Below are positions 35,918 to 40,355 of a stretch of 64,000 nt of DNA, in pieces. The position numbers and the translations under genes are program-made. The stretch's first letter is position 1. Each line of letters starts with the position of its first letter. Location: assembly GCA_944548615.1 (NCBI GenBank), contig OX155963.1, forward strand, positions 28,909,659 to 28,973,658. The letters are read 5' to 3'. The notes below the pieces were generated by a model. The model worked only from the letters and a program-made list of their open reading frames with translations. It ran no database searches and was not told the origin of the DNA. This stretch comes from Micropterix aruncella. Lineage: Eukaryota; Arthropoda; Insecta; Lepidoptera; Micropterigidae.

Positions 35918-35929
35918 CTGTGCCTCCTG

Positions 35930-36625
35930 TGACCGGTGATACAATTGAAAAATCACTACTTTACAGGACAGCCCAAACAATATTTAAAAAATTCTAGTTC
36001 ATGAACGAAGTGGGTTAGGTTACATTTAAGTACCTTCTTTTGTAGATCGAAACATCCACTTTCATTCTGTTTTTATATTTTTGTGGTAAATATTATACTT
36101 TTGAAGTAATTCATGAAAAACTCGCAGTTGTACCCTTTTTAATTTCTAATATGTGATAAAATTACGTGATAAATGATACAAGTACAGTTAAATCATGTTG
36201 CACATTTATGTTGTCTTTGTGTAAAGTGATATACAAGAAGTGAAAAAATCCAATAACTAATAAGAATATGTTCAAAACACAATGTAGCTCAAACAAATGA
36301 TAAAAATAATACTCCAAAGATTCGAATTTTTTACTTCAGTCTTCTATTTTCATATTTTACCTGAATTGTATCAGTTTGCTAAAATTCTAGTCTTTATAAA
36401 AATGTGTTAAATGATACAAGTCCAGTTATATCCTGCATTAAAATACCTATGTATGGTGGAAATGAATACAAGTTTTAGAAAAATACTTAACGTTTATTAA
36501 AGTCTTCAAAATTATGAAATTACTTACAAATAAGGCACAGTTTTATCAAAATTATAAGAAGTAAATAGAGATCTTTTTAAATGCAATTAGTCTTAAACTT
36601 AAATACTTAGAAATGACACAGATCA
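35930..36625. repeat. Subterminal repeats of DUF7869 element 2, left side
   Basis: Recurring TGATACAA-type words near 35937, 36175, 36227 and 36412 (AATGATACAAGT twice), plus AATGACACAGATC near 36612. They mirror words on the right side (39586-40340) and are candidates for transposase binding sites. Confidence 0.5.
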
Positions 36626-36925
36626 ATCTTACGCAGCTATCACAATAATCAAAGTGAACCTACTCAGTACAAAACATAACAGCACAGCCATTGTGTGAAT
36701 CCTTAAAAAAATCTAGAAAAATAATAAACATCAAAATTGCTAACACTTTAAAACTTACACAGTACAGTTAACAGCTGTTAACCTATCCTATAGGCAGTAA
36801 TTCGACTCTATGAGTGAGGTAAAAGAATGAAGAGAACAAAGAAGTACGTAGGTACCTACTTAAATCAAAATAAAACCTTTAATAGGTCTTGGGAGTTAGA
36901 TGAACATAACTATCATATCATAAAA

Positions 36926-39244
36926 TTACTCATCATCAGAATCATCATCATTATCCGGAGCAGTGTCTTTGACATCATTCTTGCAGCTCAGACTTCTGTA
37001 AAACTCATGAGAGCTCTCATGAATAAAGCACAGCAAATCCAATAGATCCTTCTTCTTTTCGGTTGAAATAGTAATCTTGGAATGGTAGGCTTTCGGTACT
37101 GTATTTATTGTAATCATATCGTAAGCTTTACCCCGCTTAGAACAATCCATGTTCATGTACTCAACATTCTTGAATTCTTTTTTGTAAGAAAAACGGGACA
37201 TGTTTTCTTTGGTATACAAAACAGATCGAACGTCGCACCACAGAAATTTTTCATTGTCTGTATTGGTTTTCCTGAGAGTATAACATTGTTTTGAAAAAAT
37301 GTTGAAATCGTAGAACATATCACGAGTCATCTCGATAACAGTGAACTTCGCTGTTTTGTTTGAAGCTGTACGCACTAGCTGGTACCAATCTCTTGGCAAG
37401 TGAATATCCATACTCGTGTGCTTCTTCTTACGCTCAATCAACGCATGGTCGGTGTCAGCCTCCATGTGAGTATGACCGGGTACGAGAAATTTATGTTCAA
37501 TAGATTGTAATTGAGGGGATAGTTTAGCCACTAGCATCAACATTGTTGTAACAATCGAATTCTTGTTTTGACCCGGGCAACTATCTGAGTACATGATCAG
37601 CTTCTTGGCGTTTGGGTTTAAATGCGGCAGTTGATTTATGATAAAATCGTATAGACATGAAGCTATGTCGTTCGCTCCTCTATTCCCTTCACACTCCGGC
37701 CACATGTAGCAAAACGCTTTGTTTGTTTTTAGATCATGTATGGTTAGATTGTACGTCCATAGCTGTCTCTTGTAAAATGCTACATTCGTTTGCAAGTGTG
37801 GGGTGGGCAAACATTGTTGCAAATCAAATGTTATTACCATTACATCATCGCATGTCTGAGCCAGGTGTTTATCTTTTTTCTTTTCTTCGTAAGCAGCCTT
37901 AAATGCTTCTTGGTGCTCTTCGAGTGCCTTCGTCAAATCTGCAGCCTGTGCCTCGGTTGCGTACTTAAGTTTCATATTTATGGAGTCACATTTAGAACAA
38001 GTATCTACTGATGGTTTTTTGAAAGACAAATTCATGGTATCAAATACCTTTTTGAAAATGGTTTTGCTGACTGGAGTTTCTGTCTTCAATTTGTACGAAT
38101 TATAAAGAACTTGTAAGTTGAGTTCAGAATTCAAGAATTTCTTAGTCGTTTTGTTACGGCCGTAGTGGCTTTCTGTGCAAGGGAAACAGGCAATATGAGC
38201 TTTTATTTCCTTTAGTTTGAAATCAGGAATCGACTTACCGACTCGACGTTTACGTGGTGGAAGGTGACCGCCATTGTCCCGTAGTTTTTCGCAAATCGTT
38301 TGTAGAAATTTATGACTTTCGTCGAAAGTCTTCAAAAGACATCCTTTACAAATTTGATGTTTTGTTAGATCAGAACTTTGAACGAAGTATCTAAAGCTGA
38401 CGTTGCGTTTTTTCTTTGGAGAAGACCTTGACGTTTTTTTTCCGCAAACTTCAATGCATTTCGCCATATAATCGATCCTACTTTCATAACTTCCCAGACT
38501 CCAATATGTATCGAAAAGATTTTTCCTTACATGCAATGGTAGCCTATCTTTGCACTTCTTACGACAGTTGTCTAGATCACGTAATTCACGACTTTTCTTA
38601 GTTTTTCCTGACTTTGTTGTGTATTCCAAGCCAGTGTTACGAAAAAGTTTTCTCTTTACTCTATCATGTCTTCTTTCTTTCTCACTTTTTCTTGTTTTTT
38701 TCTTTTTTCCGCCACTATTCATACCGCTATTTTTCCAGAAGGAATCAGCGGGAGCATTCTCTGATATGCTCGCATTATTTGGAGATGGTGTTTCAGGAAC
38801 CGTAATATTATTTTCTGATGTAGCCGTTTTCTTTCTTCTCTTTTTAACCGGAGTTCTTTCGTCATTAGTGGATGAGGAAGATTCATCAGTACCGCAAATG
38901 TAATCATCACTGCTAGATGATCCAAAATCACCATCGGTTGATGAACCTGCATCTGTCAAATCATCTAACAGGTTTTCGGAAGCATTTACATTTGTTTTGT
39001 TCGTCTTATCGTTGTCAATAACCATTTCTGTTGAATTATCTGAAGATATTGGATTCTGGTGTTCGTTGATAGTAGGGACTGGACTTTCAATAGACTTTTC
39101 TGGCAGTGATCCTTCAATTGGTTCTCTTACTTCGTATCCGTAGCCGCATTCATTGGTATTATTATTTTGTTCTGTTCGTTTAATTTCAGCTTCGATGGGG
39201 TATTGAGAACTCATGTTTGCTGCGTCATTAGTGGCTAAATCCAT
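36926..39244 (-). CDS. DUF7869-domain protein, putative DDE/D transposase
   Basis: Intact 772-residue ORF; start chosen at MDLATNDAANMSS (39244) because an acceptor-like TTTTTGTTTCAG lies just upstream (about 39278-39290), implying a 5' exon. Parts in order: a Ser/Asp-rich acidic N-terminal region with basic nuclear-localisation-like clusters (KKRRKK; KKKKTRKSEKERRHDRVKRK); Cys/His pairs (HQICKGC, CFPCTESH, CSKCDS) that may bind zinc; then the conserved core TFDLQQ (Asp474), MYSDSCPGQNKN (Asp554) and PGHTHMEADTDH (Glu595, Asp597). The core order and hydrophobic strands before each acidic residue resemble an RNase H-like fold. DUF7869 is an uncharacterised family name recalled from memory. A transposase role is inferred from the TIRs and target site. 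Acidic tail DNDDDSDDE. Confidence 0.8.
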   Translation of the reverse strand: MDLATNDAANMSSQYPIEAEIKRTEQNNNTNECGYGYEVREPIEGSLPEKSIESPVPTINEHQNPISSDNSTEMVIDNDKTNKTNVNASENLLDDLTDAGSSTDGDFGSSSSDDYICGTDESSSSTNDERTPVKKRRKKTATSENNITVPETPSPNNASISENAPADSFWKNSGMNSGGKKKKTRKSEKERRHDRVKRKLFRNTGLEYTTKSGKTKKSRELRDLDNCRKKCKDRLPLHVRKNLFDTYWSLGSYESRIDYMAKCIEVCGKKTSRSSPKKKRNVSFRYFVQSSDLTKHQICKGCLLKTFDESHKFLQTICEKLRDNGGHLPPRKRRVGKSIPDFKLKEIKAHIACFPCTESHYGRNKTTKKFLNSELNLQVLYNSYKLKTETPVSKTIFKKVFDTMNLSFKKPSVDTCSKCDSINMKLKYATEAQAADLTKALEEHQEAFKAAYEEKKKDKHLAQTCDDVMVITFDLQQCLPTPHLQTNVAFYKRQLWTYNLTIHDLKTNKAFCYMWPECEGNRGANDIASCLYDFIINQLPHLNPNAKKLIMYSDSCPGQNKNSIVTTMLMLVAKLSPQLQSIEHKFLVPGHTHMEADTDHALIERKKKHTSMDIHLPRDWYQLVRTASNKTAKFTVIEMTRDMFYDFNIFSKQCYTLRKTNTDNEKFLWCDVRSVLYTKENMSRFSYKKEFKNVEYMNMDCSKRGKAYDMITINTVPKAYHSKITISTEKKKDLLDLLCFIHESSHEFYRSLSCKNDVKDTAPDNDDDSDDE

Positions 39245-39277
39245 TATTTTAGCTATTCGGGATTTCGGAAACGTCAA

Positions 39278-39290
39278 CTGAAACAAAAAT
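39278..39290 (-). promoter_or_regulatory. Candidate splice acceptor upstream of the DUF7869 ORF
   Basis: On the minus strand, TTTATTTTTGTTTCAG precedes TTGACGTTTCC and the ATG at 39244. A pyrimidine-rich tract followed by CAG suggests that a short upstream exon lies within the element's terminal 1 kb. The donor was not identified. Confidence 0.4.
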
Positions 39291-39579
39291 AAACGTCTGT
39301 ACTGTAAGAAGGTACGTACTTACCGGTTTTAATTGAGCAATAATTGTAAGAAAACTCTTTAGAATCAGAGTACGGAAAAAATAATTATGTATCTCTAAAC
39401 TACTGATAGTTAGTACTGATAGATAGTAAAAAAACATCAAAAGTAGGTTAACCAAAAAAGCGGAAAATCACTTTGAGTAGGTAGTCAATCGTGAATCAAA
39501 TTAATAGGAACAAAATAGCAAAAGTAAAGATTAGTACCTTGACTATGTTTACATTACAATAGGTACCTACCTATCTATT

Positions 39580-40345
39580 TTGTGTCAAGTGATTTAATTC
39601 AATAATGAAACAAAAATCCAAAACTATGCAATTTCGTGTAAAATGATACATCTAACAACTTACGCGTCGATCCATGGCGACTTCGGACGTGACCAAGCTT
39701 CATAAAGGCCGCAGCGACACTAACGCCCGCGCATCTCCTACCCCGCGTCACGCCCTCACTTCGCCTCGCGCACCCCCGCCACTCTCGTCATGTTCGTACT
39801 TGTATCACATAGCACATCTAGTAATTAATAAAAAAAAACAAATCTGGTTTGAGTTTTAGATACAACTCAATTTATATTCGTTTACACATAAAAAATTCTT
39901 TGTGTCGAATGATGTAAGTCGAGATGCATCACTTATCACAAATCAGGCACAACTTTAGATTCGGATTAGTAGGTACATGTTGAGTTATACCCTAATCAGT
40001 ATGGAGAAAAATTGGTGCAAAGTGATATAACTCTAAATATATCAATATTCACGATAAATATACTGAAAAATAAAGTGTGTAAATTAATATAATCTCTCTT
40101 ATACCACGAGGCACAAAAAAAAATGTGTGAAGCAATGACCTAAAGGGGTTACGACTTGACTTATATCTAAATTCACGATATTTTTTCCGAAATTCTGTCA
40201 GTTATATCACTTGGCACCAAATTATCTCCGAAACTATAGCAGATAGAAGGACTTGAGTTGTACCAAAAAAATCGTAATTTTTTTCTGACAATTTCTATGT
40301 AAAAATCACAAAAAGGGTACAACTCGAGTTAAATCACCTTTCACA
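39580..40345. repeat. Subterminal repeats of DUF7869 element 2, right side
   Basis: AAGTGATTTAATTC, AAATGATACATC, GAATGATGTAAGTCGAG, AAGTGATATAACTC and inverted forms (GAGTTAAATCACC, AGTTATATCACTT) occur within 750 bp of the right terminus. Confidence 0.5.
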
Positions 40346-40355
40346 GGAGGCACAG

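Follow-up and report, generated by a model that had tools for sequence, protein, structure and literature searches.

Our analysis indicates that a 4,438-bp unit in the genome of Micropterix aruncella is, with a high degree of confidence, an autonomous cut-and-paste DNA transposon, whose transposase would be the DUF7869 protein that it encodes. The unit occupies positions 35918-40355 of a 64,000-bp stretch of contig OX155963.1 (assembly GCA_944548615.1, positions 28,909,659 to 28,973,658 of the forward strand), hereafter the window, to which all coordinates refer. Copy number, near-identity of the copies, intact frames, target-site duplications (TSDs) and empty sites together argue for recent cut-and-paste mobility, and DUF7869, a domain of unknown function in Pfam, is very probably a transposase domain. 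A preliminary description, made from the letters of the window, had proposed a recently active cut-and-paste element; the recency of its movement was borne out by near-identical copies, TSDs in 38/39 copies and empty sites, while its present activity is inferred.

Structure of the element

The 4.4-kb unit with matching 23-bp terminal inverted repeats (TIRs) that had been described was confirmed to the base. Both TIRs, which agree at 21 of 23 positions, follow the sequence CTGTGCCTCCTGTGA[CC|AA]GGTGAT, at 35918-35940 (+) and 40333-40355 (-), and a search of the window tolerating up to 3 mismatches returned these 2 matches only, whereas 100 shuffled versions gave 0.00 on average. The single gene of 772 codons, the sole long one detected inside the unit, lies intact on the minus strand, as the absence of a broken frame had already indicated. 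As also described, the unit sits in a (TA)n array, which spans 35688-35917 on one side and continues as (AT)n at 40356-40458 on the other. This array hides an ATAT TSD, which, being buried in it, is unreadable from the window copy alone and was deduced from copies located outside arrays. Toward each end, a 19-bp half-site, TGTGnnnnnTGATAnAACT, a motif defined by eye in this element, is repeated in a subterminal array, with dyads whose starts are offset by 21 bp, in +/- orientation at 36165/36186 and 36403/36424 on the left, and at 39901/39922, 40014/40035 and 40076/40097 on the right. The features of the element are as follows.

35914..35917, unstranded: left 4-bp TSD, ATAT, the last 4 bases of (TA)n, deduced from the other copies (4-bp TSD in 38/39 two-ended copies)
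35918..35940, plus strand: left TIR, 23 bp, present in the 40 fetched copies with up to 3 mismatches
35928..36712, unstranded: left subterminal array of the 19-bp half-site
36926..39244, minus strand: DUF7869 transposase gene (putative function), single exon, 772 aa, ATG at 39244, stop at 36926-36928 included
37343..37888, minus strand: predicted RNase H-like catalytic core, residues 453-634, from the predicted model and the alignment
37823-37825, 37583-37585, 37454-37456 and 37433-37435, minus strand: putative catalytic acids D474, D554, D597 and E604, respectively
37850..38677, minus strand: residues 190-465, the N-terminal region, in which the Cys pairs 227/231, 299/302 and 416/419 are invariant
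39581..40345, unstranded: right subterminal half-site array, its last half-site overlapping the right TIR
40333..40355, minus strand: right TIR, 23 bp
40356..40359, unstranded: right 4-bp TSD, ATAT, the first 4 bases of (AT)n, deduced as for the left

Copies in the genome

The 1.08-Gb genome, assembled in 742 contigs, was searched with three queries drawn from the element: its left 1.2 kb (120 first-look candidates), 1.2 kb of its interior (50) and its first 163 bp (70). The best 40 places for each query were all 100% identical to it, and the three queries combined designated at least 45 distinct places. The copies analysed here are the 40 found with the left 1.2-kb query and fetched with their flanks, a sample that favours young copies because the best-scoring places were chosen. 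They are distributed over 23 contigs, and in 39 of the 40 both ends are present and flank the gene, the opposite of the TIR copies without the gene that had been set out beforehand as evidence against a transposon. The remaining copy, L024, is complete save for its right end, which stops 9 bp short, at the inner of two CACAG repeats in the TIR, possibly through use of an inner end; it was left out of the two-ended counts. Another copy, L035, which shares its left flank with L037, was kept in the counts of TSDs and reading frames and left out of the analysis of substitution classes. L065, whose partner end was absent from the fetch, did not enter the analysis.

Divergence from the per-column majority amounted to a mean of 1.64 substitutions per copy in 4,438 bp (39 copies), and six copies, including that of the window, displayed no difference at all. 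In 123 columns the deviation was confined to a single copy, and in 4 columns it was shared by at least two, indel columns included. The burst is young, with a star-like descent of the copies from one sequence. The 772-aa frame was kept in 32 of the 39 copies and extended to 779 aa in one, the longest frame being 370 to 569 aa in the other six. Substitutions posterior to insertion were 29 nonsynonymous to 3 synonymous, for a random expectation of about 4:1, and their density was alike within the gene and outside it (L035 left out in both cases). They are thus unconstrained, so that the copies behave as those of a transposon and not as a constrained gene family. Two left-end places (C20:25303452 and C11:17592241), which like three places new to the internal query lie outside the 40 fetched copies, were not among the scored places of the internal query, and left-end candidates outnumbered internal ones, so that internally deleted copies, or ends without the gene, may exist.

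Target-site duplications and empty sites

Identical 4-bp flanks were found in 38 of the 39 two-ended copies (ATAT 24, AATT 5, ATTT 3, AAAT 3, AACT 1, ATCT 1 and AGTT 1), the left end of copy L020 having been moved by one inserted base before reading. Strict AWWT accounts for 35 of these 38 TSDs and, with AACT, ATCT and AGTT, the general form is A-N-N-T. The sole copy devoid of a matching TSD, L035, lies on a 60-kb contig, shares 250 bp of left flank with L037, differs from it in its right flank and ends in (TA)n; it may be an assembly chimera. Flanks were moreover joined and compared with related repeats. Four of nine such comparisons were clean, with the 4 bp present once: AGTT for L045 (two places), AATT for L043 and, at lower identity, ATTT for L044. 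In both comparisons for L022, ACAT stands in place of the ATAT of the copy; the one for L048 was gapped at the site, and those for L013 and L017, within arrays, were uninformative. Matching flanks and empty sites therefore establish a TSD of 4 bp. Such TSDs, e.g., AATT, AAAT, ATTT and AGTT, do not fit Tc1/mariner elements, pogo included, for which an excerpt of PMC5199201 gives a 2-bp TA. Likewise, piggyBac and Kolobok, which duplicate TTAA according to the relevant lines of PMC9587614, do not fit, TTAA being found in 0/38 matching TSDs.

The DUF7869 protein as a probable transposase

The protein was assigned to PF25273 (DUF7869) with 27.4 bits, narrowly above the threshold of 26, and this assignment is supported by close homologues of similar length: among the matches listed, the closest measured 769-780 aa and shared 88 to 92% identity with it over residues 230-772. 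The protein search gave 245 relatives, and among the 120 listed, all those bearing a species name were insects; a second search (120 listed) also included the mollusc Lottia. Several different proteins per species appeared in the searches and in the tree described below, instead of the single-copy host-gene homologues that the preliminary description had opposed to its own reading. Alignments were built with 53 of the 120 listed proteins (A1), with 78 of the 120 (A3) and with 31 of the 120 of the second listing (A2), a window sequence being added to each. Across 54 aligned sequences, D474, D554 and D597 were invariant, while E604, conserved in at least 90%, is an alternative third acid.

The DUF7869 region was modelled as an RNase H core resembling those of integrases and Mos1, in which strands 1 and 4 and the last helix carry the acids, a predicted structure that lends support to the earlier guess of an RNase H-like transposase. 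Foldseek alone returned nothing at E 0.001 for this core, Pfam and NCBIfam transposase models gave no match to it at E ≤ 1 when searched with the whole protein, and a sequence search of the PDB gave a single, non-significant match (E 0.36). The predicted core is what the protein shares with Mos1/mariner transposases and retroviral integrases; it differs from them by its 4-bp TSD, which is not TA, by the absence of sequence similarity in the PDB search, and by an N-terminal part in which a clear known fold was not recognised. The N-terminal region, with its Cys pairs, is presumed to bind DNA.

From a mechanistic point of view, the target of this N-terminal part would be the half-sites that recur across both ends and overlap the TIRs; binding at the dyads, with their 21-bp offset between half-sites, may involve a dimer. 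The bound transposase would then pair the ends of the element and, through its RNase H-like core (D474, D554 and, as third acid, D597 or E604), may cleave adjacent to C|TGTG, the ends being joined over a 4-bp stagger at an AWWT target.

A second, older family of DUF7869 elements

A second, decayed DUF7869 element was found in the same window.

10122..12635, plus strand: second, decayed DUF7869 element, flanked by ATAT
10769..11545, plus strand: surviving DUF7869 frame of this element, 258 aa

Its inverted arms of 40 bp (10117-10156 and 12601-12640) include the TSD, and its frame is identical to the main protein in 81 of 242 aligned columns (33%). Elsewhere in the genome, nine copies cover at least 2,495 bp at 94 to 98% identity, in addition to fragments; several form clusters, around 31.2 Mb on contig C51 and around 5.0 Mb on C32, and many matches end at the element ends. 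Matching 4-bp flanks were present in six of the seven copies read at both ends, window copy included (ATAT in five, ATTT in one); the seventh has a damaged left end and flanks that do not match. The weight rests on the ATTT copy, because ATAT is palindromic and could also be read as TA. In a tree of 42 sequences, a branch with a support of 1.000 separates the groups of the two elements, and Lepidoptera and Coleoptera occur in both, as do Parnassius apollo, Scirpophaga incertulas and two Diabrotica species. The presence of the same species in both groups fits transposons and not a single-copy gene. This second family is older and supports the general reading of DUF7869 genes as parts of transposons.

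Comparison with other lepidopteran sequences

Over its full length, the transposase shares 74% identity with a protein of Parnassius apollo, a figure that rises to 84% over residues 230-772. A clavesin-2-like CRAL-TRIO host gene of the window (55485-56528) shares only 55 to 59% identity with its counterparts in ten Lepidoptera, which are 76 to 94% identical among themselves; its best-scoring named relative is that of the caddisfly Arctopsyche (64%). By this gene, the host would probably fall outside the Lepidoptera sampled. The transposase being far closer to that of the butterfly than the host gene is, horizontal transfer is suggested, and we suspect a recent entry by this route; this is a weaker claim than the previous ones, since one host gene, possibly a paralogue, makes for thin sequence evidence. 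As a separate observation, the DUF7869 tree places the stick insect Bacillus rossius with a weevil and the cockroach Diploptera with a leaf beetle, groupings that possibly represent further horizontal transfers.

Affiliation and alternative explanations

Bao et al. reportedly defined Sola, in 2009, by DDD transposases and 4-bp TSDs. The element studied here has a 4-bp AWWT TSD in 35/38 copies, 23-bp TIRs and the candidate acids D474/D554/D597, with E604 as an alternative. In the part of PMC3627910 that deals with Fanzor-carrying Sola2 elements, AWWT TSDs are given for one species, and ATAT, AAAT and ATTT for another. Since an AWWT TSD is known for Sola2, we filed the element as probably of the Sola2 type, likened to it by description of TSD and TIR and not by transposase sequence. 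The Fanzor-carrying Sola2 of Dictyostelium fasciculatum and Polysphondylium pallidum, as far as the same extract describes them, likewise have 4-bp AT-rich TSDs, TIRs and a large transposase; this transposase reaches 888 aa versus 772 aa here, their TIRs measure 12-13 and 21 bp versus 23 bp here, and we saw no Fanzor gene in the present unit. The family had been called poorly described, and this must be toned down, its TSD agreeing by description with that of Sola2, an element already described; the term DUF7869 was absent from the searched literature, which left out most subscription journals. With the same coverage, searches on the family and on motif strings gave nothing that we recognised, from the listings, as a description of this element.

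DUF7869 could instead constitute a superfamily of its own, with a 4-bp AT-rich TSD convergent with that of Sola2, an explanation that competes with the Sola2 label only and that we consider possible, if clearly the less likely. The mismatch with Pfam and NCBIfam transposase models, the insignificant PDB match and the silence of the searched literature speak for it, whereas the conserved acids fit a DDD-type transposase, as in the reported definition of Sola, and both length and sequence of the TSD agree with Sola2 in the portion of PMC3627910 cited above. A more daring version, which we regard as rather unlikely, would make DUF7869 a superfamily as yet unjoined to any described one in the searched literature, with a member active now, acquired horizontally from or alongside Lepidoptera, its ends recognised via the dimer dyads offset by 21 bp. 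If true, the element would represent an integrating vector of a new kind, directed to 4-bp AWWT sites.

That the element specifically targets (TA)n microsatellites seems very unlikely. Such targeting is reported for microsatellite-associated miniature inverted-repeat transposable elements (mMITEs) of pineapple in an excerpt of PMC8449440; these likewise have many copies inside (TA)n arrays, and differ in being, by the same excerpt, non-autonomous and likely Mutator-like derived, with some 9/10-bp TSDs. Here, (TA)n of at least 12 bp borders both sides of 11/39 copies (28%), i.e., the window copy and 10 others, and three further units of the window adjoin (TA)n. However, 921 of 4,237 AWWT sites of the window (22%, counting the arrays of its own insertion), as well as 31% of those in four stretches of 5 kb (430 of 1,376), already lie inside such arrays, so that the share of insertions is close to background and special targeting is not needed; besides, the first fetch was biased to (TA)n by a query starting with 18 bp of array.

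Other repeats of the window, recorded next to such arrays, agree with this. A pogo-like (DDE_1) element with TIRs GGGAGnCCGGGGTTGGAAGTnCC lies at 31921-34910, bordered by a (TA)n array on either side, and its coding sequence is split across frames. One repeat unit stands beside (TA)n singly at 9460-9767 and as an inverted foldback pair at 35127-35687, and also flanks copy L013. Elsewhere in the window, a second DDE_1 (pogo-like) transposase relic occupies 5992-7623 (-), its two open pieces separated by one stop.

It is still more improbable that the family is non-autonomous or dead and moved by another transposase, DUF7869 being a passenger or a captured host gene. Passenger genes do occur in transposons, such as Fanzor in Sola2 (PMC3627910, same extract), and it weighs against our interpretation that the unit holds one gene only and that activity is deduced from sequence and a model. 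By contrast, DUF7869 is the only long gene of the unit, and its core, in which the acids are invariant, is predicted to resemble that of integrases; moreover, a second DUF7869 clade resides within different TIRs with 4-bp TSDs, and homologous proteins are several per species. Lastly, assembly or segmental duplication of one locus can practically be dismissed: L035 does repeat the left flank of L037, yet the other copies outside arrays have differing flanks and TSDs of their own, on 23 contigs.

Significance

This element, with DUF7869 as its very probable transposase domain, gives a concrete, likely function to a domain carried by many insect proteins, and DUF7869 genes can be marked as probably belonging to transposons and not to the host. 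With its dozens of intact, near-identical copies, the element is a practical choice for assaying the activity of a Sola2-like transposase, and its contrast with the host gene makes horizontal transfer testable.

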